DNA from: Sideroxydans lithotrophicus ES-1
GTDB lineage: Bacteria > Pseudomonadota > Gammaproteobacteria > Burkholderiales > Gallionellaceae
Assembly (NCBI RefSeq): GCF_000025705.1
Contig: NC_013959.1
Coordinates: 608,001 to 672,000, forward strand
Length of the DNA stretch: 64,000 bases
Direction: 5' to 3'
Positions 2,027 to 18,805 of this stretch are shown here, one piece after another. The notes below the pieces were generated by a model. The model did not search any database. It saw nothing but the letters and a program-made list of their open reading frames with translations, and was not told the origin of the DNA. The first letter of the stretch is position 1. The number at the start of each line of letters is the position of its first letter. The translations under genes and the position numbers were made by a program.

Positions 2027-4369
2027 ATGACCACTGAAACTTCCACACAGCAAACCGAAACACAGTCTGTAGCACAGGCTTCTCGCGAAATTCTTGAGCA
2101 CCATCGGGATGACCACTTGCCGGGAATCGGTATGCAAAACGTCCAGAGCAAAGATATTAGGCATCAGCTTTCCAGCCAGATTTTGACAGGCGATAGCCAA
2201 GAACCTGCATCGCGAGAGGTCGATGATCTTGTAGCGCTTTTTTCGGCAGGCCGTTATCCGGAGGCGGTTGTCATGTCCAAAGAGATGACGGCTCGATTTC
2301 CGCAGTACGGGATTGGTTGGAAGATGCTTGGTGTGTTGTTCAATCAAATGGGACGTAATGCCGAGGCCTTGGGGCCAATGAGGAATGCGATTACCCTCTT
2401 GCCGAACGATGCCGAGGCGCACGGCAATCTTGGCATAATCCTTAACGGACTTGGTATGCTGGACGAGGCTGCCGCAAGCTATCGCAGGGCAATTCAGCTC
2501 AATCCGAATGTTGCCGGATGGTACTTCAATCTGGGTAATATCTTCATGGCGCAGGGAAAATGGCAGAAGTCTGAAGACTGCTACCAATGCGTTCTTATGC
2601 TCAAGGCTGATTTCCCTGAGGTTTATAACAATCTGGGCATCATCCGCAAAGCGATGGGACAGCCAGTGGAAGCAGAGGCCTGTTATAGACGTGCAATAGA
2701 GATCAGGCCGAATTATGCCGATGCCTATAATAATCTGGGTTCAGTGCTTCAGTATCTTGGGCGGCCGGTCGAAGCCGAAGTGAGCTATAAGCACGCAATA
2801 CAACTAGAACCGGCTCGTGCTGAGTCCTACAGCAATTTGGGCAATACCTTGCAGGAACTTGGGCGCTACCATGAGGCTGAAGCCAGTCTGCGGCGAGCTC
2901 TCCAGCTCCAGCCTGATCATGCTCAGGCGTATAACAATCTGGGAGGAACACTCAAGCATATGGGGCGGCTTCAGGAGGCTGAGTCCTGTTACCGCCGGGC
3001 ATTGCATATCAGCCCGGAAAAGGCTGAGGTGCATAGCAATCTGGGGGCAACGTTGATGGATATGGGACGGCTGCACGAGGCCGAACAATGCTATAGGGAA
3101 GCATTGAGGATCAATCCCGAGTATTTTCCTGCGCACAGCAATCTGTTGTTTATGATGAATTATGCATCGAACAGCAATCCCGAAATCGGCCTTGCAGAAG
3201 CGAAGTTTTATGGAATGAAAGTGAGCAGCAAAGCCTCTGCAAAGTTTCGCGACTGGTCATGCAACCGACAAGCTAAGCGTCTGCGCATCGGTTTTGTGTC
3301 TGGGGACTTTCGACAACACCCCATTGGTTATTTTCTTGAAAGCGTGTTGAAGCAAATCGATCCGGTCAGTTTGGAGTTGTTCGCTTACCCGACATATCAT
3401 GCGGCAGACGAAATCACTGCACGCCTCCAGCCGCGGTTTGCTGCATGGCGACCGTTGTGTGGTATGAGCGATGAAGATTCTGCAAGATTGATACACGGTG
3501 ATGGCCTGCATGTGTTAATCGATCTGTCAGGACACACACAGCATAACCGTTTGCCGGTATTTGCCTGGAAACCGGCGCCGATTCAGGTAAGTTGGCAGGG
3601 CTATTTGGCAACCACTGGTGTTGCCGAGATTGATTATTTTTTGGCTGATCCCTATGTGGCACCGATTCGTGAGGCAGGTCATTTCACGGAAGAGATCTGG
3701 CGATTGCCGGAGTGCTATATGTGTTTCACTGAACCTGCAGTGGCATTGGATGTCGCGCCTTTGCCATCGCTATCGACAGGTTGCATTACTTTTGGCAGCC
3801 TGAACAACTTGACTAAGATGAGCGATGCGACAGTTGCGTTATGGGCGCAGATATTGACTGCCGTGCCCGGATCCCAATTGTTTCTCAAGACCAGATTACT
3901 CAGTGCAAGTGAGATGCGTGAATCGGTGATAAGACGCTATGCACAGTACGGCATTCCGGAAAGAAGATTGATACTTGAAGGCGCCGGCACGCTTACGCGC
4001 TCGGAATATCTGGAATCTTATCGGCACATTGATATTGCGCTTGATCCGTTTCCGTATGCGGGATGCACTACGAGCATTGAAGGATTGTGGATGGGGGTGC
4101 CGCTACTCACCAAACGTGGCGATCGTTTTGAATCTCATCTGGGGGAGACCATCAATTGCAACGCAGGACTGGCGGATTGGATCGCAATCGACGAAGACGA
4201 TTATGTGGCAAAAGCGGTAAATCTTTCCTCCGATCCAGAACGACTCGCATCGCTGCGGGCAGGCTTGCGCCATCAGGTTTTGTCTTCTCCTCTGTTTGAT
4301 GCGCCCCGCTTTGCGCGCAACTTTGAGCAAGCATTGAGGGGGATGTGGGGTCGATGGTTGGAGAGATGA
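2027..4369 (+). CDS. TPR repeat protein with O-GlcNAc transferase (SPINDLY/GT41) domain
   Basis: Predicted soluble protein glycosyltransferase of 780 residues. After a Gln/Thr-rich leader of about 60 residues there are about nine consecutive TPRs (residues ~66-385, repeated NNLG...GR..EAE.SYRRAL pattern). A GT41-type catalytic region starts near residue 416 (KRLRIGFVSGDFRQHPIGYF). Family landmarks are visible: DLSGHTQHNRLP (~499), FGSLNNLTKMSD with the Lys expected to hold UDP-sugar (~597), and IALDPFPYAGCTTSIEG. In this family the TPR superhelix binds the acceptor protein. The location directly after fliE and upstream of the flagellin block suggests flagellin as target; this is inference. 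The paralogue at 16252-18756 is very similar in its catalytic half. Base composition is visibly more AT-rich than the housekeeping genes: 2701-2760 counts 27/60 G+C. Confidence 0.9.
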   Translation: MTTETSTQQTETQSVAQASREILEHHRDDHLPGIGMQNVQSKDIRHQLSSQILTGDSQEPASREVDDLVALFSAGRYPEAVVMSKEMTARFPQYGIGWKMLGVLFNQMGRNAEALGPMRNAITLLPNDAEAHGNLGIILNGLGMLDEAAASYRRAIQLNPNVAGWYFNLGNIFMAQGKWQKSEDCYQCVLMLKADFPEVYNNLGIIRKAMGQPVEAEACYRRAIEIRPNYADAYNNLGSVLQYLGRPVEAEVSYKHAIQLEPARAESYSNLGNTLQELGRYHEAEASLRRALQLQPDHAQAYNNLGGTLKHMGRLQEAESCYRRALHISPEKAEVHSNLGATLMDMGRLHEAEQCYREALRINPEYFPAHSNLLFMMNYASNSNPEIGLAEAKFYGMKVSSKASAKFRDWSCNRQAKRLRIGFVSGDFRQHPIGYFLESVLKQIDPVSLELFAYPTYHAADEITARLQPRFAAWRPLCGMSDEDSARLIHGDGLHVLIDLSGHTQHNRLPVFAWKPAPIQVSWQGYLATTGVAEIDYFLADPYVAPIREAGHFTEEIWRLPECYMCFTEPAVALDVAPLPSLSTGCITFGSLNNLTKMSDATVALWAQILTAVPGSQLFLKTRLLSASEMRESVIRRYAQYGIPERRLILEGAGTLTRSEYLESYRHIDIALDPFPYAGCTTSIEGLWMGVPLLTKRGDRFESHLGETINCNAGLADWIAIDEDDYVAKAVNLSSDPERLASLRAGLRHQVLSSPLFDAPRFARNFEQALRGMWGRWLER

Positions 4370-4425
4370 AAAAAACGATGGGCGCCAACTGGCTTTTTTG
4401 GAACGAACCTAAACGTGATTAACAA

Positions 4426-7221
4426 ATGACCCGGGAAATTTCTTTAACGCAAGCTGGTGTGCGGACGCTAGAGCTTGCGCTATTGCAAGCCGTTGAGTTG
4501 CATCAGGCCGGCCGGCTACAAGAAGCAGAGCAATGCTATCAGGCCATCTTGAAACTCGATCCACATCATGCCAAAGCAAATCACAATCTTGGGGTATTGT
4601 CGGTGCAAATGGGACAGTCAGAAGCTGGTCTTGCCTATTTCGCGGCCGCACTTGAGGCGGATCCAGCGCACGGGCAATACTGGCTGAGTTATATCGATAC
4701 CTTGCATCTGGCTGGCCAGTCGGAAGAAGCGCGACAAGTGCTGGCGCTTGCTCGACAGAGCGGGTTGCAGGGCGATGATGTCGATGCGCTGGAAGCGAGT
4801 TTGGAAGGTGCGGGCCTGTCTGGAGCAGGACATCAGCCCGAATCGGCCGGGACGAATGATCAGCTGAAGTCAACTCAACAAAGCAAAAGTCCTCACCAGC
4901 AAGAAATCAACACATTGATCGCACTGTTTACACAAGGTCGGTATGAAGAGGTCATGTCCCTCTCTCAAGTGATGACACGGCGATTTCCCCAGTATGGTTT
5001 CGGCTGGAAGATATTGGGGGTGGCCTGCAAGCAGCAGGGAAAGAACGCTGAAGCCCTGATTCCAATGCAAAAGGCGGTCGAGTTGTTGCCGAACGATGCC
5101 GAGGCACACAGCAATCTGGGGGGCGTTCTTCAGAGTCTCGGACGATTGAGCGAAGCGGAAGCGATGCTGAGTCTTGCGTTACGGATCAATCCGGATAATG
5201 CCGACGCACTGTTCAATCTGGGCATAACCCTGCAGGGACTGGACCGGCTGGACGAGGCAGAGCGCAGCTACCGAAAGGCACTGCAGATCAGGCCAGATTA
5301 TGCTGAAGTGCATGGCAGCCTGGGCGCCGTCTTGCAGGCTACTGGGCGTCTGCAAGAAGCATTGACGCATTTCCAACAACGATCCCTGCTGGCTCCGGGG
5401 AATCCCGTAGACCAGCATCTGATCGCCTCTCTGACCGGTGAGACTACCGAACGTGCGCCCGCCAAATACGTCGAGGATGTTTTCGATAGCTATGCCGATA
5501 ACTTCGACAGCCATTTGCTGCAAGTGCTCAAATATGAAACTCCCAGAAAGTTGCTGGAGTCAATTTCGCATCACCCTCCGAATGCGGACAAATGGGATGT
5601 TCTGGATTTGGGCTGCGGAACGGGACTGTTTGGAGTGGAGGTTGCACCGTTTGCAAAACAACTGGTCGGAGTGGATCTTTCCTCGAAGATGCTGGAGCAG
5701 GCGCGGGCGCGCAAGCTGTATCAGCGTCTTGAACAGGCGGATCTGGTGACCATGATGCAAGGCGAGCCTGCTGCAAGCTTCGATGTGATCGTGGCAGCTG
5801 ACGTGTTCGTATATCTGGGCAAACTCGATGACGTGATCGCCGAAGCAGGACGGTTGCTGCGGCCGGGCGGGATACTGGCGTTCTCTGTCGAGGATTGCGA
5901 TATGTCGCCGCGCCGGTCGGACGCTCAGGGCGAGGTGCCGGATTACCAGTTGAAGAACACAGGGCGTTACGGCCAATCGCTCGGTTACCTTGCACGATTG
6001 GCATCTGTTAATGGCCTTCAGATACAGGAGGAGGTTGCCACTCAACTCCGCATCGATCATGGCAAGCCGATCCTGGGACATATCTGTCTTTGGGCGAAAG
6101 AGTCCGCGACCAATGCCAAGCATGGCGCGCCATCCGCAGATCAGTTACTGCAAGGAGCAGTCAGGTGTCATCAGGCGGGTCAATTGCATGACGCCGAGCG
6201 TCTTTATCGCGAGATACTGGGAATCGATCAGAATCATTCAAAGGCAAATCACAATCTGGGCTCACTGTATATTCAGAAATCGCAGCCTGCTGCCAGTCTG
6301 CCGTTCTTTGCGGCTGCGCTGGAAGCTGATCCGGCGCACGGCCAATACTGGTTGAGTTACATCGATGCCTTGCATCAGGCAGGTCAGAAGCAGGTTGCGC
6401 GTGAAGTGCTTGCTTTGGCCAGACAATATGGATTGGGCGGAGAAGACGTGGATGCCCTGGAGATGAATCTGCGCGGCGGGCCAGCTGACATGGCAGGACA
6501 GTCGCAATCCTATTGTCCTGTTTGCGGCAGCAATCAGGTCTCCTTTTTGCCGCTTCCCGAGTTTTATCGCGAAAGCTCGCGTCTTTACGGATTCGAACAT
6601 TTTGGTAAAGGCGAAATGATCTCGCTGGAGCAATACACGTGCAATCGTTGCGGAGCGTCTGACCGTGAACGTCTTTATGCATTATGGATCGATCAACAAC
6701 TTGAGAAGAACTCATTGAGTCGTTCTGCCAAGGTCATGCATTTCGCCCCGGAAGAAGCGCTGTCGAAAAGGCTCCGGCAGCTGTTTGCCAATTACGAGAC
6801 TGCGGATTTTGGCATGGGGCAGGTCGACCATAAGGTCGACCTTCAGAACCTGCCATTTGCCGATGAGAGTTATGAATTTTTCATTTGCAGCCATGTGCTT
6901 GAACATGTGGAAAGCGACGACAGGGCGATCCGTGAGTTGTACAGGATCACCAGAACGGGCGGTTGTGGCATTCTCGTGGCACCGATCATCGTGGGGCTGG
7001 AGAGGACTGTGGAAGACCCGAGCGTGAAAGATGCGGCAGGTCGCTGGCGTCTTTATGGGCAGGATGACCACGTCAGGCTGTATGCTCATGACGATTATGT
7101 GAACAAGATCCGCAGTCACGGGTTCCACGTGGCCGAGCTGGGTGAAGAATATTTTGGTGAAGAAATATTCCATTCGCTGGGTCTGACGCACACAAGCATC
7201 CTGTATGTGGTGAGCAAATGA
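4426..7221 (+). CDS. TPR-methyltransferase-TPR-methyltransferase fusion protein
   Basis: A 931-residue multidomain protein. Order: TPR module (residues ~17-128), linker, further TPRs (~155-335), a class I SAM-dependent methyltransferase (LDLGCGTGLFGVEVAP near 393, then VIVAADVFVYLG), a second copy of the first TPR module (~572-690), a zinc-ribbon-like stretch (CPVCGSNQ at ~697, CNRCGASDRER at ~739) and a second methyltransferase (Methyltransf_11 type: FFICSHVLEHVESDDRAI). The two TPR modules are near duplicates, sharing EADPAHGQYWLSYID and GLxGxDVDALE, and the same module opens the protein at 16252-18756. Its stop overlaps the next start by four bases (ATGA), so it is in one operon with the aminotransferase. 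It probably methylates a sugar or a protein in the flagellar modification pathway; the substrate is unknown. Confidence 0.85.
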   Translation: MTREISLTQAGVRTLELALLQAVELHQAGRLQEAEQCYQAILKLDPHHAKANHNLGVLSVQMGQSEAGLAYFAAALEADPAHGQYWLSYIDTLHLAGQSEEARQVLALARQSGLQGDDVDALEASLEGAGLSGAGHQPESAGTNDQLKSTQQSKSPHQQEINTLIALFTQGRYEEVMSLSQVMTRRFPQYGFGWKILGVACKQQGKNAEALIPMQKAVELLPNDAEAHSNLGGVLQSLGRLSEAEAMLSLALRINPDNADALFNLGITLQGLDRLDEAERSYRKALQIRPDYAEVHGSLGAVLQATGRLQEALTHFQQRSLLAPGNPVDQHLIASLTGETTERAPAKYVEDVFDSYADNFDSHLLQVLKYETPRKLLESISHHPPNADKWDVLDLGCGTGLFGVEVAPFAKQLVGVDLSSKMLEQARARKLYQRLEQADLVTMMQGEPAASFDVIVAADVFVYLGKLDDVIAEAGRLLRPGGILAFSVEDCDMSPRRSDAQGEVPDYQLKNTGRYGQSLGYLARLASVNGLQIQEEVATQLRIDHGKPILGHICLWAKESATNAKHGAPSADQLLQGAVRCHQAGQLHDAERLYREILGIDQNHSKANHNLGSLYIQKSQPAASLPFFAAALEADPAHGQYWLSYIDALHQAGQKQVAREVLALARQYGLGGEDVDALEMNLRGGPADMAGQSQSYCPVCGSNQVSFLPLPEFYRESSRLYGFEHFGKGEMISLEQYTCNRCGASDRERLYALWIDQQLEKNSLSRSAKVMHFAPEEALSKRLRQLFANYETADFGMGQVDHKVDLQNLPFADESYEFFICSHVLEHVESDDRAIRELYRITRTGGCGILVAPIIVGLERTVEDPSVKDAAGRWRLYGQDDHVRLYAHDDYVNKIRSHGFHVAELGEEYFGEEIFHSLGLTHTSILYVVSK

Positions 7222-8330
7222 CAAAATCGAACGAGCCGATCTATGTAACCAAGCCGGTGCTGCCGCCCTTGGAGGAATTCCTTCCGTATCTGCAACAGAT
7301 ATGGGATAGCCGGATACTTACCAACGGTGGCTCTTTTCACCAGCAGCTGGAGCAGGCGCTGTGCGAATACCTGGGCGTCAAGTACATCTCCCTGTTTACC
7401 AATGGCACCATAGGCCTGGTCACCGCGCTGCAAGCATTGCGCATCACCGGCGAGGTGATCACAACTCCGTATTCCTTCGTAGCCACTGCGCATTCGCTGC
7501 TCTGGAATGGCATCAAACCGGTCTTCGTCGACATCGATCCGGATACGCTGAACCTTGATCCGGCCAAGATCGAAGCTGCGATCACTCCTTCCACCACGGC
7601 CATTCTGGCAGTGCATGTGTATGGACATCCCTGCGCTGTCGATGCCATCCAGAAGATCGCCGACAATTACAACCTCAGGGTGATCTACGATGCTGCACAT
7701 GCGTTTGGTGTTCAGTATCATTCCGGCAGTCTGTTGAATCATGGCGACCTGTCGGTACTGAGTTTCCATGCGACCAAGGTGTTCAATACCTTCGAAGGCG
7801 GCGCCATCGTTTCGCCGGACGCCAAGACCAAGCAGCGCATCGACCACCTGAAGAACTTCGGCTTCGTCGACGAGGTGACGGTGGTTGCACCCGGCATCAA
7901 TGGCAAGATGAGCGAGTTCAACGCGGCATTGGGGCTGCTGCAGCTCAAGGGTATTGATGCGGCAATGCAACAACGCAAGGTCATCGACGCGCGTTATCGC
8001 AAGGCTTTCGACAATGTGCAGGGGATACGCTGCTTCTCGGCCGTCCACGAAGATGTCGCCAATTACGCCTATTTCCCGATCCTGGTGCAGCCCGGTTATC
8101 CGTTGAGTCGCGATGAGCTGTACCGGAAGCTGCGCGAGCACAATATCTTTGCCCGACGTTATTTCTATCCGCTGATCAGCGACTTCCCCATGTATCGCGG
8201 CTTGCCCTCAGCGGCGCAGTCGAATCTGCGCGTGGCAAGCCAGGCCGCAAAGGAAGTGCTGTGCCTGCCGATCTATCCAGGGCTGACCGACGAGCAGCTC
8301 GATTCGGTGATCGGGTTGATCACGGGATAA
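7218..8330 (+). CDS. DegT/DnrJ/EryC1 family sugar aminotransferase
   Basis: PLP-dependent aminotransferase of 370 residues that converts a nucleotide-linked keto-sugar to an amino sugar (RffA/FdtB/QdtB-like branch). Visible landmarks: SLFTNGTIGLVTALQA for phosphate binding, VIYDAAHAFGV with the PLP-ring Asp, and SFHATKVFNTFEGGAIV with the Schiff-base Lys at about residue 187. The product sugar cannot be read from the sequence. The downstream acyltransferase suggests that the new amino group is acylated. Start ATG overlaps the stop of the upstream TPR-methyltransferase gene (ATGA), which implies translational coupling. Confidence 0.92.
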   Translation: MTKSNEPIYVTKPVLPPLEEFLPYLQQIWDSRILTNGGSFHQQLEQALCEYLGVKYISLFTNGTIGLVTALQALRITGEVITTPYSFVATAHSLLWNGIKPVFVDIDPDTLNLDPAKIEAAITPSTTAILAVHVYGHPCAVDAIQKIADNYNLRVIYDAAHAFGVQYHSGSLLNHGDLSVLSFHATKVFNTFEGGAIVSPDAKTKQRIDHLKNFGFVDEVTVVAPGINGKMSEFNAALGLLQLKGIDAAMQQRKVIDARYRKAFDNVQGIRCFSAVHEDVANYAYFPILVQPGYPLSRDELYRKLREHNIFARRYFYPLISDFPMYRGLPSAAQSNLRVASQAAKEVLCLPIYPGLTDEQLDSVIGLITG

Positions 8331-8338
8331 GCGGGCGC

Positions 8339-9040
8339 ATGAAGACCATCGCCATCATGCAGCCATACTTCCTTCCCTACATCGGTTATTTCCAGCTGAT
8401 GGCGGCGGTGGACAAGTTCGTAGTGTTTGACGATGTCCATTACATCAATCGTGGCTGGGTGAACCGCAACCGCTTGCTGCTCGATGGAGCAGCACATACG
8501 TTCACGCTGCCGTTGCGCGGCGCCAGCCAGAATCGCTTGATCTGCGAAATCGAACTGGTGGGTGAGCCGGGTTGGCGCGACAAGCTGTTGCGAACCATCC
8601 GCCAGGCTTATGCGAAGGCGCCCTGTTTTGCGGAGGTGTTCGCGCTGATGGAGCGGCTGATCACATTTCCCGCTGTGCGGCTGGATGAGTTCCTGCTCAA
8701 CAGCCTGCGCGAGGTGGCGGGCTATCTCGCGCTGGAGGTGGAGATTGAGGGCACTTCCCGGATCTATCGCAACTCGCACCTGGGTGGGCAGGAACGCATA
8801 CTCGATATCTGCCGGCAGGAGCATGCCGACATCTACATCAACCCGGTCGGTGGCGAAGATTTGTATGATCGCGCCAGCTTCCGGCAGCAAGGAATACAGC
8901 TGAAGTTCCTGCGTTCACGGCCGGTGAGCTATGCGCAAGGAAAAGGCGAGTTCGTGCCGTGGCTGTCGATCCTGGATGTGCTCATGTTCAATCCGCAGCC
9001 GGAAGCGCGGCAGCTGCTAGCCGAGATGGATCTGGCATGA
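8339..9040 (+). CDS. WbqC family protein
   Basis: 233-residue protein with the WbqC signature at its N-terminus (MKTIAIMQPYFLPYIGYFQL, VDKFVVFDDVHYINRGWVNR). WbqC proteins occur in O-antigen and flagellin glycan loci next to DegT aminotransferases. Their biochemical role is poorly defined; a transferase or acyl-donor function has been suggested for the family. The start is placed eight bases after the aminotransferase stop, because the open frame upstream of it overlaps that gene in another frame. The 3' end overlaps the next start (ATGA). Confidence 0.88.
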   Translation: MKTIAIMQPYFLPYIGYFQLMAAVDKFVVFDDVHYINRGWVNRNRLLLDGAAHTFTLPLRGASQNRLICEIELVGEPGWRDKLLRTIRQAYAKAPCFAEVFALMERLITFPAVRLDEFLLNSLREVAGYLALEVEIEGTSRIYRNSHLGGQERILDICRQEHADIYINPVGGEDLYDRASFRQQGIQLKFLRSRPVSYAQGKGEFVPWLSILDVLMFNPQPEARQLLAEMDLA

Positions 9041-9678
9041 ACGATCACAAGTACACGGCAATCATCGAGCATTACGAAGACTGCCTGGCGCAGCATGGCG
9101 ATTCCCATCTTGGGGTGGACTGGCCCAACCCGCTCGATGCGGAGAAACGCTATCGCGTGATGCTGGAGGTGGTGCGCGAAGATCCTGCGGGGCTGACCCT
9201 GCTGGATTTCGGCTGCGGGGCTTCGCATTTGTATCCGTATATGTTGAACACTCGCTTTGCTGCGCTTGAGTACCACGGTCTGGATGCCTCGCCCGCATTC
9301 TGTGAGTTGTCGCGCAGCAAGTTTCCGCAGATCGATTATACCTGCCTCGATGTACTGGATGCGCCGGAACGACTGTGCAAATTCGATTATGTCGTGATGA
9401 ACGGCGTGTTCACCGAGAAGCGCGAACTGGCATTCGACGAGATGTTCGAGTACTTCAAGCAGGTGCTGCGCATCGTTTTTCCCAAGGTGCGCCGCGGCAT
9501 GGCTTTTAACGTGATGTCCAAGGCGGTCGACTGGGAGCGCGACGACCTGTTCCATTTGCCGGCCGATCCGCTGATTGCCTTCCTGACCAAGGAGCTGTCG
9601 CGCCATTTCGTCATCCGCAACGATTATGGTCTGTATGAATACACCGTCTATGTCTACAAGGAGCCGCTTCATGTCTAA
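9037..9678 (+). CDS. SAM-dependent methyltransferase
   Basis: 213-residue class I methyltransferase. The SAM-binding motif LLDFGCGASHLYPYM lies near residue 54, followed by YHGLDASPAFCELS (acidic motif II) and FDYVVMNGVFTEKREL. It starts at the ATG overlapping the WbqC stop; upstream extension of the frame would run through wbqC and is rejected. Pathway membership (sugar O- or N-methylation) is inferred only from the tight coupling with WbqC upstream and the acyltransferase downstream (eight-base overlap). Confidence 0.85.
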   Translation: MNDHKYTAIIEHYEDCLAQHGDSHLGVDWPNPLDAEKRYRVMLEVVREDPAGLTLLDFGCGASHLYPYMLNTRFAALEYHGLDASPAFCELSRSKFPQIDYTCLDVLDAPERLCKFDYVVMNGVFTEKRELAFDEMFEYFKQVLRIVFPKVRRGMAFNVMSKAVDWERDDLFHLPADPLIAFLTKELSRHFVIRNDYGLYEYTVYVYKEPLHV

Positions 9679-10330: not shown

Positions 10331-10339
10331 AAAACAACG

Positions 10340-11143
10340 ATGGCGCTCAAACGAGAATTTGTCCCGCTGGAAACACTGGTGGGTGCCGAGCAGCTGAACA
10401 AGGCTGATGGTTTCGACCTCGACAGTTTCAGCTATAGCACCACGGTCAGGGGAAAGAGCCTGGAGTGGCTGTGCCTGTCGCGCCGGTTGCTCTGGATGGC
10501 AAGCGGACATGAACATATCGAGCCAGAACTCCTGGACTGGATCGACTGTATCCCGCAAGGGGAGGTCTTGTACGACATTGGCGCGAGCAACGGCATCTTC
10601 GCCCTGTATGCGGCGGCATGCGGCTTGCGGGTGATTGCGATTGAGCCCGATCCGATGAATTATTTCTTGTTGTCATACAATAATTACCTCAACTCCAGGT
10701 CGACTGGCGTTGCGCTGGAAGGTTGCTACAACCTGGCGATCTCGGCTGCCATGGCGGTGGGTCGCATCCATATCAAGCGGATGGAGCTGGGTGGGCACGA
10801 AAAGATACTGGACAAGCCCAGGGATGTGTTCGGACAGGCCTTCCAGCCGGAATATTCGCATCCGGTATTGAAGTGCGCCCTGGATGATCTGAGTGGCGCG
10901 ATGGGTATGCCCAGCCCCGGGTACCTGAAGATCGATGTCGATGGCTCAGAGGCGGAGGTGCTGTCCGGTGCAGATGCCAGCCTGGCTTCGGCAAAGTCGG
11001 TATTCATCGAATTGACGCAGGAATTCATGGATGCGTTCGCGATGTCGTTCTTTGCAAGCCGCGGTTATACCTTGAAGAGCAGGGTGCAGGTGCAGAACTA
11101 CGACGGTCTGTATAACTGCATCTTTGAAAAAGGGGGAAGCTGA
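10340..11143 (+). CDS. FkbM family methyltransferase
   Basis: 267-residue protein with the FkbM methyltransferase layout: SAM site VLYDIGASNGIFALYAA near residue 77, VIAIEPDPMNY, and the typical late motif LKIDVDGSEAEVLSGA near 196. FkbM enzymes O-methylate sugars and related hydroxyls. It is the fourth methyltransferase domain in the cluster, counting two in 4426-7221 and one at 9037-9678, which indicates a heavily methylated product. It starts nine bases after the acyltransferase stop. Confidence 0.85.
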   Translation: MALKREFVPLETLVGAEQLNKADGFDLDSFSYSTTVRGKSLEWLCLSRRLLWMASGHEHIEPELLDWIDCIPQGEVLYDIGASNGIFALYAAACGLRVIAIEPDPMNYFLLSYNNYLNSRSTGVALEGCYNLAISAAMAVGRIHIKRMELGGHEKILDKPRDVFGQAFQPEYSHPVLKCALDDLSGAMGMPSPGYLKIDVDGSEAEVLSGADASLASAKSVFIELTQEFMDAFAMSFFASRGYTLKSRVQVQNYDGLYNCIFEKGGS

Positions 11144-11149
11144 TCCGTC

Positions 11150-12097
11150 ATGAAGCCAATGTGCTGGAACAAGCGCGGGTTGATCTATTCGGTGGACGAA
11201 CGGCTGCCATGGGCGCGCACCCACGCCCAGATCCCGACGGTAGACGTGCTGGATGACGAACGGTTGCGGGTGTTGTTCAGCAGCCGGGATGAGACGAATC
11301 GCAGTCTGATTGCGAGGATGGATGTGGATGCGCGGAATCCATCTACCATCCTCGCCATCCAGGCCGAACCGATATTGCCGCTGGGCCGACCGGGGACGTT
11401 TGACGATTGCGGCATGATGCCTTCTGCCATTGTTGACCGGGGCGGGCAGAAGTATCTGTATTACATCGGCTGGAACGTGCGCAACACCGTGCCATACCAC
11501 AACTCGGTGGGGCTGGCGGTGAGTGATGATGGCGGGGAGACATACCGCCGCATGTTCGAGGGGCCGGTGATGGACCGCACCGCTGAAGAGCCGTATTTTT
11601 GCGCGACGACCTGCATCCGGATCGAGAATGGCATCTGGCGCAACTGGTATCTGTCTTGTACTGGCTGGGAGATGGTCGAGGGGCGCATGGAGCCGCGCTA
11701 TCATCTCAAGTATGCCGAGTCGCATGACGGCATCCACTGGCGCAGGGAGGGGCGCGTCGCCATCGATTACGCCAGCCCTGCAGAGGGTGGCATCGTGCGT
11801 GCCAGCGTGCGCAAGGATGGTTTGCTCTATCGCATGTGGTACAGCTACCGCAGCCATGCCGATTACCGCAGCGCACGGGCGAACAGTTATCGCATCGGCT
11901 ATGCCGAGTCTGGCGACGGGTTGGTGTGGACGCGGCTGGATGACATGGCAGGAATAGTGCCGAGCGCCGAGGGATGGGATTCATTCATGCTGGCCTACCC
12001 CGAAGTGGTGGATGTCGGCTCCCGCCGTTACATGTTCTACAACGGCAACGGTTTCGGGCAGACCGGGTTCGGTTATGCCGAATTGACGGAGGCGTGA
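11150..12097 (+). CDS. Five-blade beta-propeller glycosidase-like protein
   Basis: 315-residue soluble protein without a signal peptide. Repeated blade-like segments (KYLYYIGWN, SVGLAVSDDGGETY, HLKYAESHDGIHWRREG, YRIGYAESGDGLVW) and acidic residues in FDDCGMMPSA resemble the GH32/43/62/68 five-blade superfamily that is often seen in glycan gene clusters. No catalytic triad can be assigned by eye. The absence of an export signal argues for a cytoplasmic sugar-processing or binding role rather than polymer digestion. It lies six bases after fkbM and three bases before the dioxygenase gene. Confidence 0.6.
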   Translation: MKPMCWNKRGLIYSVDERLPWARTHAQIPTVDVLDDERLRVLFSSRDETNRSLIARMDVDARNPSTILAIQAEPILPLGRPGTFDDCGMMPSAIVDRGGQKYLYYIGWNVRNTVPYHNSVGLAVSDDGGETYRRMFEGPVMDRTAEEPYFCATTCIRIENGIWRNWYLSCTGWEMVEGRMEPRYHLKYAESHDGIHWRREGRVAIDYASPAEGGIVRASVRKDGLLYRMWYSYRSHADYRSARANSYRIGYAESGDGLVWTRLDDMAGIVPSAEGWDSFMLAYPEVVDVGSRRYMFYNGNGFGQTGFGYAELTEA

Positions 12098-12100
12098 GCG

Positions 12101-13072
12101 ATGACTGCGGAGCTGGCAAAATTCAATTCGGACGGGTTCTTCATCGCGAAGAACCTGCTCGACAGGCAACGCGTGCAGAAGGTCGTGCATTCCTTGGGCA
12201 AGACTTTTGCCGACCAGTTGCGCGGGCAATCGGGCAGCGCAGAAAGCGATGTATTTTCTGCCATGCAAACGCTGCACCGGTGTGATCTGGGCAGATACAA
12301 GAAAGTCGCCGCGGCATTGTGGCGGAAACTCGATGTCTACCAGTTGACCCATGATCCAAGGATCAGCGGTTTCCTGCGCGACAGGTTCGGCTGGCGGGAC
12401 ATCTTCGTCGCTGGCGGGCAGGTGGTCCATATCATGGCGCACGAATTGAAGATCCCCGACGGCTATTTTGGCTTGGTCACCCATCAGGATTTTCCCTCGG
12501 TGCAGGGGAGTCTGGATGGCGTGGTCGTGTGGATTCCGCTGGTGGATGTGGACAGGGACAACTTTCCGCTGGAAGTGATCCCGGGCAGCCATAAGCGCGG
12601 CTTGCTGCCCATGACAGGATGCGGTAGCGCATCATGGGAGGTGGCGCCCGATCAGTATCGGGAGGCGGATTTTATTCCGGCAGAGGTTGAAGCGGGTGAC
12701 GTGATCTTCATGTCCATGTTCACCGTCCATCGCAGTTCCACCAGCGGCACCGATGGCAGATGCCGGCTGGCGGTCTCCACCCGGTTCGACAATGCCGACG
12801 AGCCGACCTTCGTGGACCGCTGTTATCCAAGCGCCTACGAGCGTTCGGTTCATCGCACACAGTATTTCCCCGATTTCCCTTCCATTGAGCAGGTTGCGGC
12901 GGTGTTTCAGAGCGCGGAAAAAACTGAATTAGATTGCGGAACTAGTACATTGGTTGAAGCATCAAGTAACATCGTTCGACAATATAAACAGACTGTGAAT
13001 AGTGAATATGCCAAAAGTCTCGATCATCCTTTCCTCATACAACCATGCAAAATTCGTTCGCGAATCGATTGA
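12101..13072 (+). CDS. Phytanoyl-CoA dioxygenase (PhyH) family protein
   Basis: 323-residue Fe(II)/2-oxoglutarate oxygenase candidate. The facial triad is intact: THQDFPSV supplies His-x-Asp (about residues 128 and 130), TVHRSS supplies the distal His (about 210), and RLAVSTRF supplies the 2-oxoglutarate Arg. Such enzymes hydroxylate small molecules or sugar side groups. The last ~22 residues are encoded in a segment that overlaps the start of the glycosyltransferase gene by 65 bases in another frame. That tail (from about SEYAKSLDH) does not look like part of the fold, so the original stop may have been lost. Confidence 0.85.
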   Translation: MTAELAKFNSDGFFIAKNLLDRQRVQKVVHSLGKTFADQLRGQSGSAESDVFSAMQTLHRCDLGRYKKVAAALWRKLDVYQLTHDPRISGFLRDRFGWRDIFVAGGQVVHIMAHELKIPDGYFGLVTHQDFPSVQGSLDGVVVWIPLVDVDRDNFPLEVIPGSHKRGLLPMTGCGSASWEVAPDQYREADFIPAEVEAGDVIFMSMFTVHRSSTSGTDGRCRLAVSTRFDNADEPTFVDRCYPSAYERSVHRTQYFPDFPSIEQVAAVFQSAEKTELDCGTSTLVEASSNIVRQYKQTVNSEYAKSLDHPFLIQPCKIRSRID

Positions 13073-15419
13073 AAATACGCTGAACCAGACCTTTGCCGAT
13101 TTCGAGCTGATTATTTGGGACGATGGCTCTTCGGATAACTCCTGGGAGTTGATCAAGCAATATTCCGATCCGCGTATCAAGGCATATCGCAATGAGAAGA
13201 ATGTCGGCGGTGTGTTCGGGGTGAACAAGGCAATTTCAGAAATCGCAACAGGCGAGTACATCGCCATCCATCATTCTGACGATGTATGGGAACCGGACAA
13301 GTTGCAGAAGCAGGTCGATTGCCTTGCGGCCAATCCGCAAATCGGCGCGGTGTTCACCAATACCCAGCCGATCGACGAACGCGGCCAGCCACTGGCCGAT
13401 CAATCGCATTTTTATTACAACATCTTCAACCAGCCCAATCGCTCGCGCCAGGAATGGTTGCGGCAGTTCTTCTTCCGCGGCAATGCGCTGTGCCATCCCA
13501 GCATCCTGATCCGCAAGCAGTGCTACGAGGATTGCGGACTGTATCTGGATGCATTGGCCCAGCTGACCGATTTCGACATGTGGGTGCGGCTGTGCCTAAA
13601 GTATGAGATCCATGTGCTGCCGGAGCGGCTGGTCAGATTCCGTGTGCGGGATGCCGAGATGAATGCCAGCGGCAACCGGCCTGAGGTGCGCATCCGCGAC
13701 CGTTCCGAGTACCTCCACGTCCTGAAGCATTTTCTGCGCATCAGCACCTTCGAGGAACTGGTGGCCATCTTTCCGGAGGTGGAACAGTACCGTCGGCAGA
13801 ACGGCTGTGTCCCCCAATTCGTCTTTGCCGTGGCGGCCTTGGGCGATGCCGCGATGCTATGGGCGAAACTGTTGGGCATAGACACGCTGTTCGATCTGCT
13901 GGCAGACCCAGATACCAAGGAGAGGATCAAGTCGCTGTACCAGTTTGATTACCGCGATTTTACCGCGTTGACCGGAAAGCACGACCTGTTCTGCCTGGAG
14001 ACTGTCATGAACCAGAGGACGGAGCTCACTGAGCGGGATGTGGTCATTGCCAAGCAGACGGAACAGATTGCGCAGCTTGCCAGGTCAGCAAGAACCGGCA
14101 GCCCTGCTGTGCGGCAGGCTGCGTCGCGAACCAATGCAAACAAGGTCGAAATGCCGGCTGACAGGAGTGCCTATGAAAAGGCGGCACGTCTGCTTGAAGC
14201 GGGGCAGGTTGCAGAGGGCAAGGCGCTGCTGGAAGCGCTGGCAGAAAAAGGCAGTAGCTGCTGGGATGTGTACAACGATCTGGGCGTGCAGTACTTCAAC
14301 GAAGGCGATCTCGCCAGGGCGTCCGTCTGCTTCGAGCACGGCTTGGCGCTGGAAGGCAATGCCGGCACCACAGCGCGGAATTATGCTTCGATGCGGCTGG
14401 CGGCGGGGGATGTGGATGGAGCGCTGGCGACCTGGGGCGGGATATTGCATGAGCAACCGCAGGATGGAGCGGTGCTGGAGATCGTGCGTGAGGTATTGTC
14501 GAATATCAATCCGATCTCGCCGAGTGCATGGCAGCGACTGGTGTCTGACATTGCAAAGGGGCGGGATGAGATAGACGAAAATTCTGGCTGCTCAACAGTC
14601 GGGCCGGAAAAAGAGATCCGGATCTTTCAGATCTTCTACGACGCGAATACAAGATCGCTGGTCGACCCGAGTTTTATCCCATTGGACAACATCGAAAATG
14701 CCCGGCCAGACTGGTGCGAATACTGGTCTATACGCAAAGTTCTGTTGAGCCAATCCTTTAGTGACGACACTTATCTGGGTTTCTTTTCGCCGAGATTCTT
14801 CGAGAAAACCGCCATGTCCGGAAGCCAGGTGTTGGAGTTCGTGCGGAACTCCAGCGCGGACGTCATCAGCTTCTCACCCTATTTTGATCAAGGGGCGCTT
14901 CACCCCAGTCCTTTCTATCATGGGGAAAGCCATCATCCCGGCCTGCTCAAAACTACCCAGAATGTGTTGACATTGCTCAATGTGAATCTGGACTTGAATG
15001 CCCTGATTTGCGACCAGACCACGACAATCTTCTCGAACTACTTCGTTGCACGTTACTCGTTCTGGAAGAAATGGTTTGCGTACGCCGAGAAGATATTCAA
15101 TGTGTGCGAGGGACCGGATTGCGAGCTGAAGCACAGCCTGGTCGATCTGACGCAACACAGGAATTCCTCCAGTTATGCAATGAAGGTCTTTATCCTGGAG
15201 CGGCTGGTTACCATTGTCATGGCAGAACAGCGCATCAGGAGTGAAGTGGCCATAGACATACGGAAGGCGCCACTTTCGTTTCCGCAATCACGAGCAATTC
15301 TGGATAAGTTGATGGTGTGCGATGCCTTGAAAAGTCAGTTCTTGCAGACTGGGCTGCCGCCATTCATTGAGACGTACGTCCTGTATCGGAACAAGTTGCT
15401 GGAAGCCAAACTGACTTGA
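13008..15419 (+). CDS. GT2 glycosyltransferase-TPR fusion with uncharacterised C-terminal domain
   Basis: 803 residues in three parts. Residues ~1-230 are a GT-A family 2 transferase (VSIILSSYNHAKFV, FELIIWDDGSSDNSW, AIHHSDDVW acidic metal site). Residues ~385-510 are a TPR-like segment (YNDLGVQYFNEGDLARA). From ~533 a distinct domain begins with EIRIFQIFYDANTRSL and contains YLGFFSPRFFEKTAMSG and FSPYFDQGALHPSPF. I recall similar C-terminal domains in other surface-glycan proteins but no function. Start ATG (MPKVS) is preferred over a GTG two codons upstream. The ribosome site is poor, suggesting coupling to the overlapping PhyH gene. Probably adds a sugar during flagellar glycan assembly. 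Confidence 0.85.
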   Translation: MPKVSIILSSYNHAKFVRESIENTLNQTFADFELIIWDDGSSDNSWELIKQYSDPRIKAYRNEKNVGGVFGVNKAISEIATGEYIAIHHSDDVWEPDKLQKQVDCLAANPQIGAVFTNTQPIDERGQPLADQSHFYYNIFNQPNRSRQEWLRQFFFRGNALCHPSILIRKQCYEDCGLYLDALAQLTDFDMWVRLCLKYEIHVLPERLVRFRVRDAEMNASGNRPEVRIRDRSEYLHVLKHFLRISTFEELVAIFPEVEQYRRQNGCVPQFVFAVAALGDAAMLWAKLLGIDTLFDLLADPDTKERIKSLYQFDYRDFTALTGKHDLFCLETVMNQRTELTERDVVIAKQTEQIAQLARSARTGSPAVRQAASRTNANKVEMPADRSAYEKAARLLEAGQVAEGKALLEALAEKGSSCWDVYNDLGVQYFNEGDLARASVCFEHGLALEGNAGTTARNYASMRLAAGDVDGALATWGGILHEQPQDGAVLEIVREVLSNINPISPSAWQRLVSDIAKGRDEIDENSGCSTVGPEKEIRIFQIFYDANTRSLVDPSFIPLDNIENARPDWCEYWSIRKVLLSQSFSDDTYLGFFSPRFFEKTAMSGSQVLEFVRNSSADVISFSPYFDQGALHPSPFYHGESHHPGLLKTTQNVLTLLNVNLDLNALICDQTTTIFSNYFVARYSFWKKWFAYAEKIFNVCEGPDCELKHSLVDLTQHRNSSSYAMKVFILERLVTIVMAEQRIRSEVAIDIRKAPLSFPQSRAILDKLMVCDALKSQFLQTGLPPFIETYVLYRNKLLEAKLT

Positions 15420-15433
15420 ACAGGATGGGGCGG

Positions 15434-16135
15434 TTACCGCTGGTTGACCGGCTTTTCCCATTTCTCGAGATATTTTAAATATCCTGCAAGCCAGGCCTCC
15501 GAGCCAAAGTTGCCAAGGCTCTCATGGATGGTCGAGATCGACCAAGTACCCATTTTGATCCCCAGCTTCTCCGCCTCACGGCAAAAATCCATATCATAGA
15601 AATGGAAGTCGAATCTTTCATCGAATTTCAAGCCGTGTTTCAGCAAGGTGCGGCTGTCGCACGCCATGAACAAGCCATCCAGCAACTTCACTTCTCGGCC
15701 GGGAGGACCGAATTGTTTTATGTTCGCGGGCGGGAATCCTGTCCCGTGCCCGACCATGCCGCTCAGATTCTCCTGGGTATCCCAGGTGAACTTGGCATCC
15801 ACGAAACACCAGGCTGGTTGATAAGTGACTCTTCGTCTGTTGCCGGCAAGGCCAATCAGTTGGAAGTGATCGAGTCCTTCCACGATCTCGGCGGGCCAGT
15901 TGAACCCGCATAGATGCACATCGTCGTGAACAAATACCAATATCGCCGGATCCTGTTTCGCGGCTTCGATTGCCATGTTGTAGACAGCAGGCAGGCCGAG
16001 TTTATTCTGATCGAACAAGGCGATCTCGATTTGCGGGTAGTTGTAGAGCGCCAAGGATTTTCCCAATGCGGTCTTGAACAGAAAGTCCTCTCTGCTTTCT
16101 CTCGTGGCAACAACGATTCTGATTTTATGTTGCAT
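15434..16135 (-). CDS. Glycosyltransferase family 2-like protein
   Basis: 233-residue protein of the short GT2-like type (resembling PF13712, Glyco_tranf_2_5). Visible: IRIVVATRESREDF at the N-terminus, LPAVYNMAIEAAKQD, an acidic metal site in LVFVHDDVHLCGFNW, and a late FHFYDMDFCREAEKLG with WSISTIHESLG. It converges with the GT2-TPR gene with only 14 bases between stops. It lies downstream of the TPR-OGT gene on the same strand (116-base gap) and may be cotranscribed with it. Acceptor and donor are unknown. Confidence 0.82.
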   Translation of the reverse strand: MQHKIRIVVATRESREDFLFKTALGKSLALYNYPQIEIALFDQNKLGLPAVYNMAIEAAKQDPAILVFVHDDVHLCGFNWPAEIVEGLDHFQLIGLAGNRRRVTYQPAWCFVDAKFTWDTQENLSGMVGHGTGFPPANIKQFGPPGREVKLLDGLFMACDSRTLLKHGLKFDERFDFHFYDMDFCREAEKLGIKMGTWSISTIHESLGNFGSEAWLAGYLKYLEKWEKPVNQR

Positions 16136-16169
16136 GGTTCGTTCCCTTGTTCAAAATTTCGGCTGTTCC

Positions 16170-16186
16170 CGCCCGGTGCCCGGGCG
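16170..16186 (-). other. Short perfect hairpin upstream of the 15434-16135 gene
   Basis: Arms CGCCCGG and CCGGGCG around a three-base loop, in the 116-base gap between the TPR-OGT stop and the glycosyltransferase start. No run of T follows on the - strand, so it is not a typical intrinsic terminator. It could attenuate or stabilise the message. Confidence 0.4.
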
Positions 16187-16251
16187 AGGCGATGATATTT
16201 GGCAAACCGGGTTTTGGTGAATGCCGCGGTGCTTATGTACGCCCTGCGTCC

Positions 16252-18756
16252 TCAATTCTCTCTTTGTGCCAGCCATTTCTTCCACATTCCCCACATCGCG
16301 TTTTCGAAGTGCCCGGCAAAGCGGGGCGCGTCGAATATCGGGGAGGACAGCACTTGCGAGCGCAATCCTGCACGCAACTTGGCGAGTCGAGCCAGGTCCG
16401 AAGAGAATGATACTGCCTTGGCGAGATAGTCATCCTCATCAGTCGCGACCCAGGTATCCAAACCGGCATTGCAGGCGATTGTTTCACCCGCGTGGGCAAG
16501 GAAACGATCGCCGCGTCTGGTGAGGACCGGCACGCCCATCCACAGGCTTTCCATGCTGGTCGTTCCGCCGGGATAGGGAAAAGGGTCGAGCGCGATATCG
16601 ACCCGATGGTAGCTGGCCAGATATTCGGCGCGTGGCGATGAGCCTTCCAGTATCAGTCGCTCCTTGCCGATGCCATGCATGGCGTAGCGTTGCAGCGTGG
16701 CATCGCGTACTGACGGGTCGTTGAGCTGGCTGTACTTGAGGAATAATTTCGCCCCGGGGATGGCCGACAAGATCTTTGCCCAGAGCGCTACGACAGCATC
16801 ATTCATCTTGCTCAAATTGTTGAAGCAGCCAAAGGTGATGTGACCAGCCTGCAGGGCCGGCAGGGCAGAAACCTCTACCTTCGAGTCGGGTGCAGAAAAG
16901 CACCAGTAGCACTCCGGCAATTGCCAGATGCTTTCGCTGAAGTGCGCCGACTCCCCGACCGGAGAAACATAGGGGTCGCCGATGACGTAATCGATCTCGG
17001 CGACCCCAGTGGTGGCGAAGTAGCCCAGCCAGCTGGCCTGGATTGGGGCCGGCTTCCAGGCGAAGATCGGCAGGCGGTTGAGTCGGGTGTGGCCGGACAG
17101 GTCGATCAATATGTGGATCTTGTCGTCGTGTATCAGGCGTGCCGCCGCTTCGTCGCTCATCCCATGGATAGGGTGCCAGGCGGAAAAATGCCGCTTGATC
17201 CTGGCAGTGAGTTCGTCACTTTTGTGGAAAGCAGGGTAGGAGAACAATTCGACTGAGCTGGTGGCAAGCTGAGCGAGTACGCTTTCCAGGAAATACCCGA
17301 CCGGATGGTTCCTGAGGTCGGCAGATACCAAGCCAACCCGTAGTCGTTTGGGGCTTATTGCGACTGGCCATCGGTTGAATTTTGCAGCTGCTTTGCTGCT
17401 GACGATCTCGCCGTAGCGGCATGCCTCTGCCAGACAATCTTCAGGAGAGGAGCTGGACGAGTAATTCAGGCTGAACAGAAGGTTGCTCCTCGCCTTGAGG
17501 AAATCAGGCTTGTACTCCAGCGCATCCCTGAAGCAGCGCACGGCTTCTTCCTGCAGCCCCATGGTCATCAGCGTATTGCCAAGATTGCTCAATATCTCTG
17601 CATGGTCAGGTTTGATTCGTAGTGCCTTCTCATATTCGGACCTGGCCTCTTCGAGGCGGCCCATATCGTGCAGCGTACTGCCCAGGTTGCTATAGGCTTC
17701 AAGCGAATCCGGATTGCTTTGCAGCACATTGCGCAGGATCGTTTCGGCCTCAGCCAGTTTGCCCTGCGCTTGCAGGGCGGCCCCCAGATTACTGGACGCG
17801 CCAACCAGTCCCGGCGCGATTTGCAGCGCCTTGCGATAACTGGCCACGGCCTCTTCCAGCTTGCCTTGGCTCTTGAGGGTGTTTCCCAGGTTGTAATGCG
17901 CCTCGGCCAATCCCGGCTTGAGCTGAATGGCGCACCGGTAGCTCACCTCGGCCTCGCCGAAGCGGCCGAGATCATGCAGGGTCGCCCCCAGATTCAGGTG
18001 TGCTTCGGCGAAATCCTTATTGATCTTCAGCGCGCGACGGAAGCTTGTTTCGGCCTCGTCGAGCCTGCCCAGATAGCTGAGCGTGTTGCCAAGATTGCTG
18101 TGCGCCTGCGCGTCTTTCGGCGCAAGCTCCACCGCTCTTTGCATTGGCTGCAGCGCTTCCTCGTTCCGCCCCAGATGCTGCAGCACCACCCCCAGCGTCG
18201 CCCAGCCGAAGCTGTGCGAAGGGAACTGCATGGTCATAGCCCGGGCGGAATCCGCCACGTCTTGATAGCGGCCCTGATTGAACAGGGCGACCAGGGCATC
18301 AATCTGTTGCTGGCTTGGGTTGCTGGTGTTTTGCTGCGGATGGCCCTTTGCAGGCTTGTCCGATTTTGCTTTACCGGAATTTGCTGCCTGGGTGGGGGCG
18401 CTGCCTTTTACCCTGGTTTCCAGCGCATCGACATCGTCTCCGTGCAGGCCGTTCTTCCTCGCCATCGCCATGACTTCTCTTGCAGCTTCCAGCTGGCTGG
18501 TCTGGAACAATGCTTCGATATAGCTGAGCCAGTACTGGGCACGCGCCGGATCTGCCTCCAGCGCTTTCATGAAATGCATCTGCGCTACAGCCGGCTGCTG
18601 CTTCTGCAAAGCTATGCTGCCTATGTTGTGATTTGCTTCGGGATGGCCGGGATGGATCAGAATGATGGAACGGTATAATTGCTCGGCATCATCGAATTGA
18701 CCAGCCCGATGATGGGCGACGGCACGCTGCAGGAGCTGTTCGATTTCTGCTGACAT
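16252..18756 (-). CDS. TPR repeat protein with O-GlcNAc transferase (SPINDLY/GT41) domain, second copy
   Basis: 834 residues. An N-terminal TPR module (residues ~5-118: LLQRAVAHHRAGQF, KALEADPARAQYWLSYIE, GLHGDDVDALE) matches both module copies in the 931-residue protein at 4426-7221. After a Lys/Gln linker, about nine TPRs follow (NLGATLHDLGRFGEAEVSYR pattern). The GT41 catalytic part begins near residue 469 (KRLRVGLVSADLRNHPVGYF), with DLSGHTRLNRLP, FGCFNNLSKMND and ALDPFPYPGGTTSMES. Start: the ATG preceded by GGAAG is preferred; a TTG ten codons upstream extends the frame. It is a paralogue of 2027-4369 and lies next to the flagellar brake and flagellin genes, so flagellin or an associated cap protein is the likely acceptor (inference). 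Confidence 0.9.
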   Translation of the reverse strand: MSAEIEQLLQRAVAHHRAGQFDDAEQLYRSIILIHPGHPEANHNIGSIALQKQQPAVAQMHFMKALEADPARAQYWLSYIEALFQTSQLEAAREVMAMARKNGLHGDDVDALETRVKGSAPTQAANSGKAKSDKPAKGHPQQNTSNPSQQQIDALVALFNQGRYQDVADSARAMTMQFPSHSFGWATLGVVLQHLGRNEEALQPMQRAVELAPKDAQAHSNLGNTLSYLGRLDEAETSFRRALKINKDFAEAHLNLGATLHDLGRFGEAEVSYRCAIQLKPGLAEAHYNLGNTLKSQGKLEEAVASYRKALQIAPGLVGASSNLGAALQAQGKLAEAETILRNVLQSNPDSLEAYSNLGSTLHDMGRLEEARSEYEKALRIKPDHAEILSNLGNTLMTMGLQEEAVRCFRDALEYKPDFLKARSNLLFSLNYSSSSSPEDCLAEACRYGEIVSSKAAAKFNRWPVAISPKRLRVGLVSADLRNHPVGYFLESVLAQLATSSVELFSYPAFHKSDELTARIKRHFSAWHPIHGMSDEAAARLIHDDKIHILIDLSGHTRLNRLPIFAWKPAPIQASWLGYFATTGVAEIDYVIGDPYVSPVGESAHFSESIWQLPECYWCFSAPDSKVEVSALPALQAGHITFGCFNNLSKMNDAVVALWAKILSAIPGAKLFLKYSQLNDPSVRDATLQRYAMHGIGKERLILEGSSPRAEYLASYHRVDIALDPFPYPGGTTSMESLWMGVPVLTRRGDRFLAHAGETIACNAGLDTWVATDEDDYLAKAVSFSSDLARLAKLRAGLRSQVLSSPIFDAPRFAGHFENAMWGMWKKWLAQREN

Positions 18757-18805
18757 CCATTCTTCCAGATTGATGTTGGTGGCCAAAATGGCCGCAACGT
18801 ACGAA

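Follow-up and report, generated by a model that had tools for sequence, protein, structure and literature searches.

FlmG of Caulobacter crescentus is a cytoplasmic flagellin O-glycosyltransferase whose tetratricopeptide repeat (TPR) part binds flagellin, and the specificity of O-linked flagellin modification is described in the same source as poorly understood (PMC7591256). The TPR domain of Maf-1 has been reported to give both flagellin acceptor and site specificity (Unay et al. 2024, cited in PMC13317340), and the presence of TPRs has already been used to pick flagellin glycosyltransferases (PMC13317340). Flagellin islands of Enterobacteriaceae are reported to encode glycosyltransferase family 41 (GT41), DegT, FkbM, S-adenosylmethionine (SAM) methyltransferase and NeuD proteins near flagellin, and methyltransferase domains are likewise present in most of the GT41 proteins there (PMC4875605). 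Flagellin methylation alongside glycosylation is described for Aeromonas and Shewanella (PMC9290775). Here we describe an island of Sideroxydans lithotrophicus ES-1 (Gallionellaceae), found in a stretch of 64,000 nucleotides (NC_013959.1, positions 608,001 to 672,000; hereafter the window), where two facing gene sets fill the space between fliE and ycgR. Three large proteins of this island, i.e. OGT1, MT931 and OGT2, share two TPR modules, A and B, and by computation we find specific modules, varied catalytic heads, linkage to flagellar genes, a history of fusion and a predicted fold. We propose that the fliE-ycgR island probably serves to modify flagellin, through separate enzymes that have a common cassette for substrate recruitment.

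OGT1 and OGT2 resemble FlmG in having an N-terminal TPR domain and a C-terminal GT-B head. Compared by description, FlmG is a single enzyme with a single head, for pseudaminic acid, whereas here one cassette occurs on several unrelated heads. Moreover, the glycosyltransferase head is GT41/SPINDLY-like, and general family scans of the island genes turned up neither a NeuB nor a Maf family. Maf-1, as far as its published description goes, differs in combining a Maf catalytic domain with a C-terminal TPR domain and in transferring nonulosonic acid. As in the enterobacterial islands of PMC4875605, GT41/SPINDLY enzymes are found with DegT, FkbM, SAM methyltransferases and NeuD beside flagellin; those islands are described as inserted between fliC and fliA, however, whereas the Sideroxydans island lies between fliE and ycgR, and the main text of that paper mentions neither TPR nor tetratricopeptide and is not known to describe a shared docking module. 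With OGT/SPINDLY enzymes the locus shares the TPR superhelix followed by a GT41 head, but OGT2 has an extra N-terminal module A on a flexible linker, common to enzymes outside GT41. Among the matches listed in the open-licence PMC literature, none described one module common to different flagellin-modifying heads. A first-pass annotation of this DNA, made from the sequence alone, had raised the possibility of an undescribed scaffold-based modification system. TPR docking of flagellin as a principle is not new, as FlmG and Maf-1 show, but the reuse of a single specific, tethered cassette by enzymes of unrelated catalytic classes beside flagellar genes looks new. The earlier interpretation is partly supported, namely for the specificity of the modules, their reuse with different heads and the flagellar character of the locus, and the underlying pattern is real and wider than was visible from one sequence.

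The same annotation had described two TPR modules that are reused by the three proteins, and the open reading frames (ORFs) and the module copies are found where it placed them. Module A, of about 110 residues, occurs twice in MT931, once in OGT2 and not in OGT1, with its QYWLSYI and DVDALE residues at 84/118 and 640/674 in MT931 and at 74/108 in OGT2; relative to the first copy, the other two show 60 and 48% identity. Module B, of about 82 residues, occurs once in each protein, with L.ALF..GRY at residue 68 (OGT1), 164 (MT931) and 155 (OGT2), and here the identities to the first copy are 61 and 56%. The proposed B motif QYGxGWK holds for OGT1 and MT931, but OGT2 has SHSFGWA at that place. In leave-one-out profile searches, with the other TPR stretches of OGT1, MT931 and OGT2 as the comparison set, held-out copies of A scored 134.0-158.4 bits versus 21.7-24.9 bits for the best other TPR stretch, and held-out copies of B 98.4-119.1 versus 29.5-47.0 bits, which rules out a merely generic TPR similarity. 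A profile search of the whole genome (a single contig of 3,003,656 bp) returned three full copies of each module, all at this locus; the next matches scored 31 bits (A) and 40 bits (B), with models built from those same copies. No DNA repeats were found at a minimum length of 40 bp and a seed of 12. Recent DNA duplication of the modules is therefore unsupported.

Pfam agrees with the annotated catalytic heads, i.e. two GT41 transferases and two methyltransferases. Glyco_transf_41 matches OGT1 with 163 bits and OGT2 with 169.5 bits (cut-off 25), preceded by seven and five TPR_1 stretches, respectively, and of the solved structures SPINDLY comes closest to the OGT1 head (258 bits, with human OGT at about 149). 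The two proteins are clear paralogues (52% identity over 723 residues); the genome also encodes a third GT41 protein (L098), which is unrelated. MT931 carries two SAM-methyltransferase domains, one in the middle (MTmid) and one at the C-terminal end (MTend). In the MTend head there are a Cys4 motif and, at the place of motif I, the residues VMHFAPE, where class I methyltransferases usually show a glycine-rich sequence; its activity is not to be assumed.

The search for module A with other heads, as the first-pass annotation had advised, yielded 63 A-bearing ORFs with 67 copies of A. They come from 38 of the 150 Gallionellaceae genomes that were sampled (E<=1e-20); eight of these ORFs are cut by contig or stretch ends. 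Module B is also present in 58 of the 63, with a median gap of 21 residues between A and B. GT41 heads are found in 45 ORFs, two of them frames of G112. The other 18 comprise MT931 and its orthologue, one protein with MTmid and two with MTend, three sulfotransferases (Sulfotransfer_3 and _4), four proteins whose methyltransferase heads belong to a single family and have an extra region, one GT9-like protein, one that combines FkbM, Methyltransf_23 and GT9-like parts, one with a head lacking a Pfam match (L104), one without a head (L103), and two truncated where their contigs stop. In the four-member methyltransferase family the heads of L068 and L089 match Pfam; that of L072 has no Pfam match in two pieces, yet it is 51 and 61% identical to these two, and the head of L076 looks nearly the same as the L068 head. 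Fusions of GT41 with DegT (L079 by Pfam, L081 by near-identical sequence) and of methyltransferases with GT41 also occur among the A-bearing proteins. GT9-like is a weak label (Glyco_transf_9 over about 33 residues, 20-29 bits at a cut-off of 22), albeit for heads that form one family by BLAST.

The position of the cassette within these proteins varies as well. A GT41 protein of genome G138 (L073:9822-12239, minus strand) carries B N-terminally and A behind the catalytic head, at the C-terminal end, which indicates that A is position-independent. A protein of 1964 residues encoded next to fliC (L096:8226-14117) has, in order, FkbM, A, Methyltransf_23, B, a GT9-like region, again A and B, and finally another GT9-like region that is 94% identical to the earlier one.

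Confinement of A to the family was rejected, as a 54-row profile finds it in at least 50 of 399 genomes of the order (1e-15). The class-wide search with a three-row model at 1e-20 found A in at least one of 369 genomes, i.e. the genome of the window itself; both counts are lower bounds, with at most 11 first-look candidates scored per genome. Of the 46 A-matching genomes outside the family in the order search, we followed 22, i.e. those that score at least about 85 bits; the other 24 (at most 78 bits, many covering the first two repeats only, G816 and G644 among them) are possibly generic and stand outside the linkage counts. Module B extends to other classes, with matches in 25 of 398 genomes at 1e-15, and is therefore less specific as a mark when taken alone. 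Two genomes of another class (G933, G987) have 13 B matches each, and in four stretches from them (L187-L190) the heads that carry B are of the GT41, FkbM and weakly GT9-like types; none of the four gave a flagellar match. A single frame of 4629 residues (G106:C216) contains at least four GT41 matches, with no listed A match on its contig.

Linkage to flagellar genes, which the annotation had read from this one locus, recurs across the family. In 29 of the 38 A-positive genomes A shares a contig with FliD, and in every one of these no more than 25 kb separate FliD from the nearest A; four of the other nine have a flagellar gene within 5.3 kb (fliE in G101 and G095, flaG in G145, fliC in G060). 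An A gene lies within 500 bp of fliE, fliC, ycgR, fliD or flaG in 25 of the 38 genomes, and fliE is the nearest flagellar gene for 14 A-bearing ORFs of the family, at only 42-95 bp. G088 has one extra A copy at a distance of 167 kb. Beyond the family, linkage is seen in 16 of the 22 genomes that were followed, in 15 via FliD within 35 kb and in G682 via flgB. PF00669 was found in 37 of 38 A-positive versus 73 of 112 A-negative genomes (one-sided Fisher p=2e-5, relatedness ignored); this flagellin model also matches FlgL. As a control, at least 77 GT41 genes were compared: of those with A, 30 lie within 36 kb of FliD, one lies farther and eight are on contigs without FliD, whereas the corresponding numbers without A are 4, 4 and 30. 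Two of the four A-less genes near FliD carry B, i.e. OGT1 of the window and a protein of 754 residues of L060.

That these are enzymes of lipid-linked or envelope glycans which lie in a flagellar cluster by coincidence, with TPRs that hold a membrane or polymerase partner, is very improbable. Genes of the GT2, FkbM, WbqC and DegT types found in the island do also occur in O-antigen clusters; GT41 enzymes, however, are protein glycosyltransferases, no flippase, polymerase or ligase family turned up in the general scans of the island genes, and the fliE and ycgR neighbours recur in other genomes.

An AlphaFold2 model of A-B, built with 11 aligned sequences, has a mean predicted local distance difference test score (pLDDT) of 87.6 and a predicted template modelling score (pTM) of 0.49. 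In this model A consists of three helical hairpins (three TPRs) and a capping helix at residues 107-118, the linker at 120-143 has a pLDDT below 50, and B starts a new series of hairpins. Because of this separate three-hairpin fold and the low-scoring linker, A is read as a closed domain tethered by a linker that is predicted to be disordered, separate from any single rigid superhelix. Foldseek matched the model to ordinary TPR proteins. The A-MTend model was poor (mean pLDDT 54, four sequences).

We infer that A and B bind flagellin, and the same applies to every chemical step of the following scheme. A would be a self-contained domain of three TPRs closed by its capping helix and joined by a flexible linker of about 20-30 residues to B, which would form the first part of a continuous TPR array running to the catalytic head. 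Together, A and B may hold on to freshly synthesised flagellin by its conserved D0/D1 parts while it is still in the cytoplasm and awaits export, which would allow the head to act on nearby residues or on a sugar that has just been attached. GT41 heads would place the first sugar on Ser/Thr, methyltransferase heads would methylate sugar or protein, and synthesis or extension of the glycan would fall to the DegT, WbqC, NeuD-like, FkbM, PhyH and GT2 genes. Fusion of a further head to the same cassette could then add new chemistry.

MT931 appears to be an example of such a fusion. Its second A copy clusters with the A of two stand-alone A-MTend proteins (support 93-94, not starred), which have 377-378 residues, are encoded directly behind fliE in G113 and G016, and share 73 and 71% identity with the C-terminal third of MT931; its first A copy clusters with A copies on MTmid heads. 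Since each A groups with its own head type and the stand-alone proteins are this similar, the best reading of MT931, from sequence, is that two A-bearing enzymes became fused, namely [A-B-MTmid] and [A-MTend]. The slot behind fliE is occupied in G054 by a different fusion, [A-B-MTmid]-[A-B-GT41]. In G101, a genome that is 69% complete, an MT931 orthologue lies directly behind fliE and the sole GT41 gene on the 16.5-kb contig is the OGT2 orthologue, so that OGT1 is absent from that place.

Several observations weigh against a shared flagellin-recruiting cassette. OGT1 itself has no module A, which is thus not obligatory. In the A tree, A largely tracks the head (MTmid with MTmid, MTend with MTend), as simple descent predicts, and 49 of 91 inner branches are left open. 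Five of the 38 A-positive family genomes show no linkage: in G093 and G084 A sits where a contig ends, with no flagellar match in about 19 kb on the other side, the contigs of G002 and G125 measure only 5.5 and 4.7 kb, and in G119 neither PF00669 nor FliD was found. Linkage is likewise absent from six of the 22 genomes that were followed beyond the family, with FliD 0.5-1.5 Mb away on the same contig (G670, G776), without a FliD match (G613, G538) or with FliD on a different contig (G595, G639). In the GT41 control, 38 of 77 genes are uninformative as they lie on contigs without FliD. G734 and G705 have a second A protein, with a GT9-like head, away from flagellar genes, and the A-B-Sulfotransfer_3 genes of G119 (L095:2987-8665) and G639 (L168:1235-7592) adjoin genes for a protein of 1131 residues without Pfam match and a DUF4214 protein of 1330 residues, respectively. 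Finally, the flagellin-like ORFs in the fetched loci range from 203 to 1276 residues, so that a common docking site would lie in the conserved ends.

The behaviour of the tree bears on the possibility that A and B share no more than ancestry, as an inherited N-terminal cap for folding or dimerisation on which heads were exchanged, with no common target. This we consider unlikely. It would account for the frequent tracking of heads by A, for the ordinary TPR character of both modules in fold and profile searches, and for the paralogy of OGT1 and OGT2; however, A is found C-terminal to the head (L073), before MTend without B (L060, L065) and between heads (L058, L023, L096), positions beyond the needs of a mere cap, and the flagellar linkage spans head types and families. 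At least 14 head changes over seven head classes on the A tree suggest head exchange, to which little weight is given as the tree is poorly resolved and the count stands without a shuffled control.

The loci away from flagellar genes raise another alternative, in which the cassette docks something other than flagellin, i.e. an export factor (FliS, FlhA), FliD, another enzyme of the island (as a scaffold), or surface proteins generally. The Sulfotransfer_3 enzymes beside large surface-like proteins at the non-flagellar loci L168 and L095 point in this direction, as do two A enzymes that adjoin flgB and not fliC (L172, L176). Nevertheless, fliC, fliD or flaG lies within 500 bp of the A gene in ten ORFs of the family, and flagellin is a known target of TPR-type flagellar glycosyltransferases, as reported in PMC7591256 and PMC13317340; we therefore regard a non-flagellin target as rather improbable. 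What speaks for FliD in particular is its proximity. The GT9-like A proteins of G734, G705 and G670 have no flagellar match in stretches of 20 kb, and the same head family adjoins fliC, ycgR or flaG in L090, L096, L174 and L023. At L163:8139-13719 an A-B-GT9-like gene is divergent from a NeuB-family gene and a gene for a TPP enzyme, with no flagellar match in the stretch. The neighbours of 1131 and 1330 residues look like secreted surface proteins, and a non-flagellar use of the cassette at L095 and L168 is possible. These two loci also hold genes that, judged by eye, resemble those of nucleotide-sugar enzymes.

Flagellin recruitment as proposed for the fliE-ycgR island may be one case of a more general function, which we put forward tentatively: A-B could be an address cassette in the form of a tethered mini-TPR domain, independent of head and position, that sends any modifying enzyme (glycosyl-, methyl-, sulfo- or aminotransferase) to a self-assembling surface protein, mostly flagellin and, off flagellar loci, perhaps an S-layer-like protein.

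The features of the locus are listed in Table 1. As expected of a flagellin glycosylation island, the genes are inserted among flagellar genes near flagellin and include a set for glycosyl transfer and sugar biosynthesis (two GT41, two GT2, DegT, a hexapeptide acyltransferase and FkbM). The plus strand encodes, in order, OGT1, MT931, DegT, WbqC, the small methyltransferase, the NeuD-like acyltransferase, FkbM, the weakly phosphorylase-like protein, PhyH and GT2, and the minus strand OGT2 and the second GT2-like gene. Beyond ycgR follow a fliK-like gene, fliS, fliD, flaG and then fliC. Just outside the window FliP, FliM and FliG are confirmed by Pfam, and the names fliR, fliK and fliJ were assigned by eye.

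Table 1. Coordinates (window positions) of the fliE-ycgR island, its module copies and the nearby flagellin gene
Feature	Position	Strand	Remark
fliE, left edge of the island	1620..1946	+	Pfam FliE, 112.6 bits
OGT1: module B, TPR array and GT41 head, without module A	2027..4369	+	780 residues
Module B copy of OGT1 (residues 66-147)	2222..2467	+	
MT931: [A-linker-B-TPR-methyltransferase] fused to [A-Cys4-methyltransferase]	4426..7221	+	931 residues
Module A copy 1 of MT931	4462..4839	+	
Module B copy of MT931 (residues 162-243)	4909..5154	+	
MTmid head of MT931	5380..6120	+	Methyltransf_11/12/25
Module A copy 2 of MT931	6136..6507	+	
MTend head of MT931	6508..7218	+	CPVC/CNRC Cys4 motif and methyltransferase domain
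DegT/DnrJ/EryC1/StrS sugar aminotransferase	7218..8330	+	start codon overlaps MT931 stop
WbqC-like protein	8339..9040	+	
Small SAM methyltransferase	9037..9678	+	
Hexapeptide acyltransferase, NeuD/PglB/VioB-like	9626..10330	+	137 bits, under the NCBIfam cut-off of 160.8
FkbM methyltransferase	10340..11143	+	
Weak match to mannobiose phosphorylase model	11150..12097	+	41.8 bits vs cut-off 450; without Pfam match
PhyH-family dioxygenase	12101..13072	+	
GT2 glycosyltransferase, long C-terminal region	13002..15419	+	GTG at 13002
GT2-like glycosyltransferase	15434..16135	-	
OGT2: module A, linker, module B, TPR array and GT41 head	16252..18756	-	
Module B copy of OGT2	18055..18300	-	
Module A copy of OGT2	18385..18744	-	
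ycgR (PilZN-PilZ), right edge of the island	18806..19573	-	
fliC, flagellin of 238 residues, proposed substrate	23653..24369	-	Flagellin_N and Flagellin_C

The residues of OGT1 and MT931 are encoded by 2027-4366 and 4426-7218 (plus strand). The OGT2 coding sequence (16255-18756, minus strand) gives 834 residues from ATG, with an alternative TTG start at 18786. Family scans of the first GT2 protein used 13077-15416, i.e. the sequence minus its first 25 residues. Relatives of the weakly beta-1,2-mannobiose phosphorylase-like protein are found in several A-positive islands. Promoter and terminator scans returned 11 and 14 sites versus 10.2 and 17.1 in shuffled sequences, which is about chance.

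The cassette would provide a sequence mark for candidate flagellin-modifying enzymes, including sulfotransferases and methyltransferases, and with seven or more head types on one docking cassette it offers a natural set for asking whether the TPR part alone sets the substrate. If the proposal is true, A-B would be a ready-made tag for targeting new enzymes to flagellin, and its combinations with different heads would constitute a modular code for the multi-step decoration of one cytoplasmic substrate before export.

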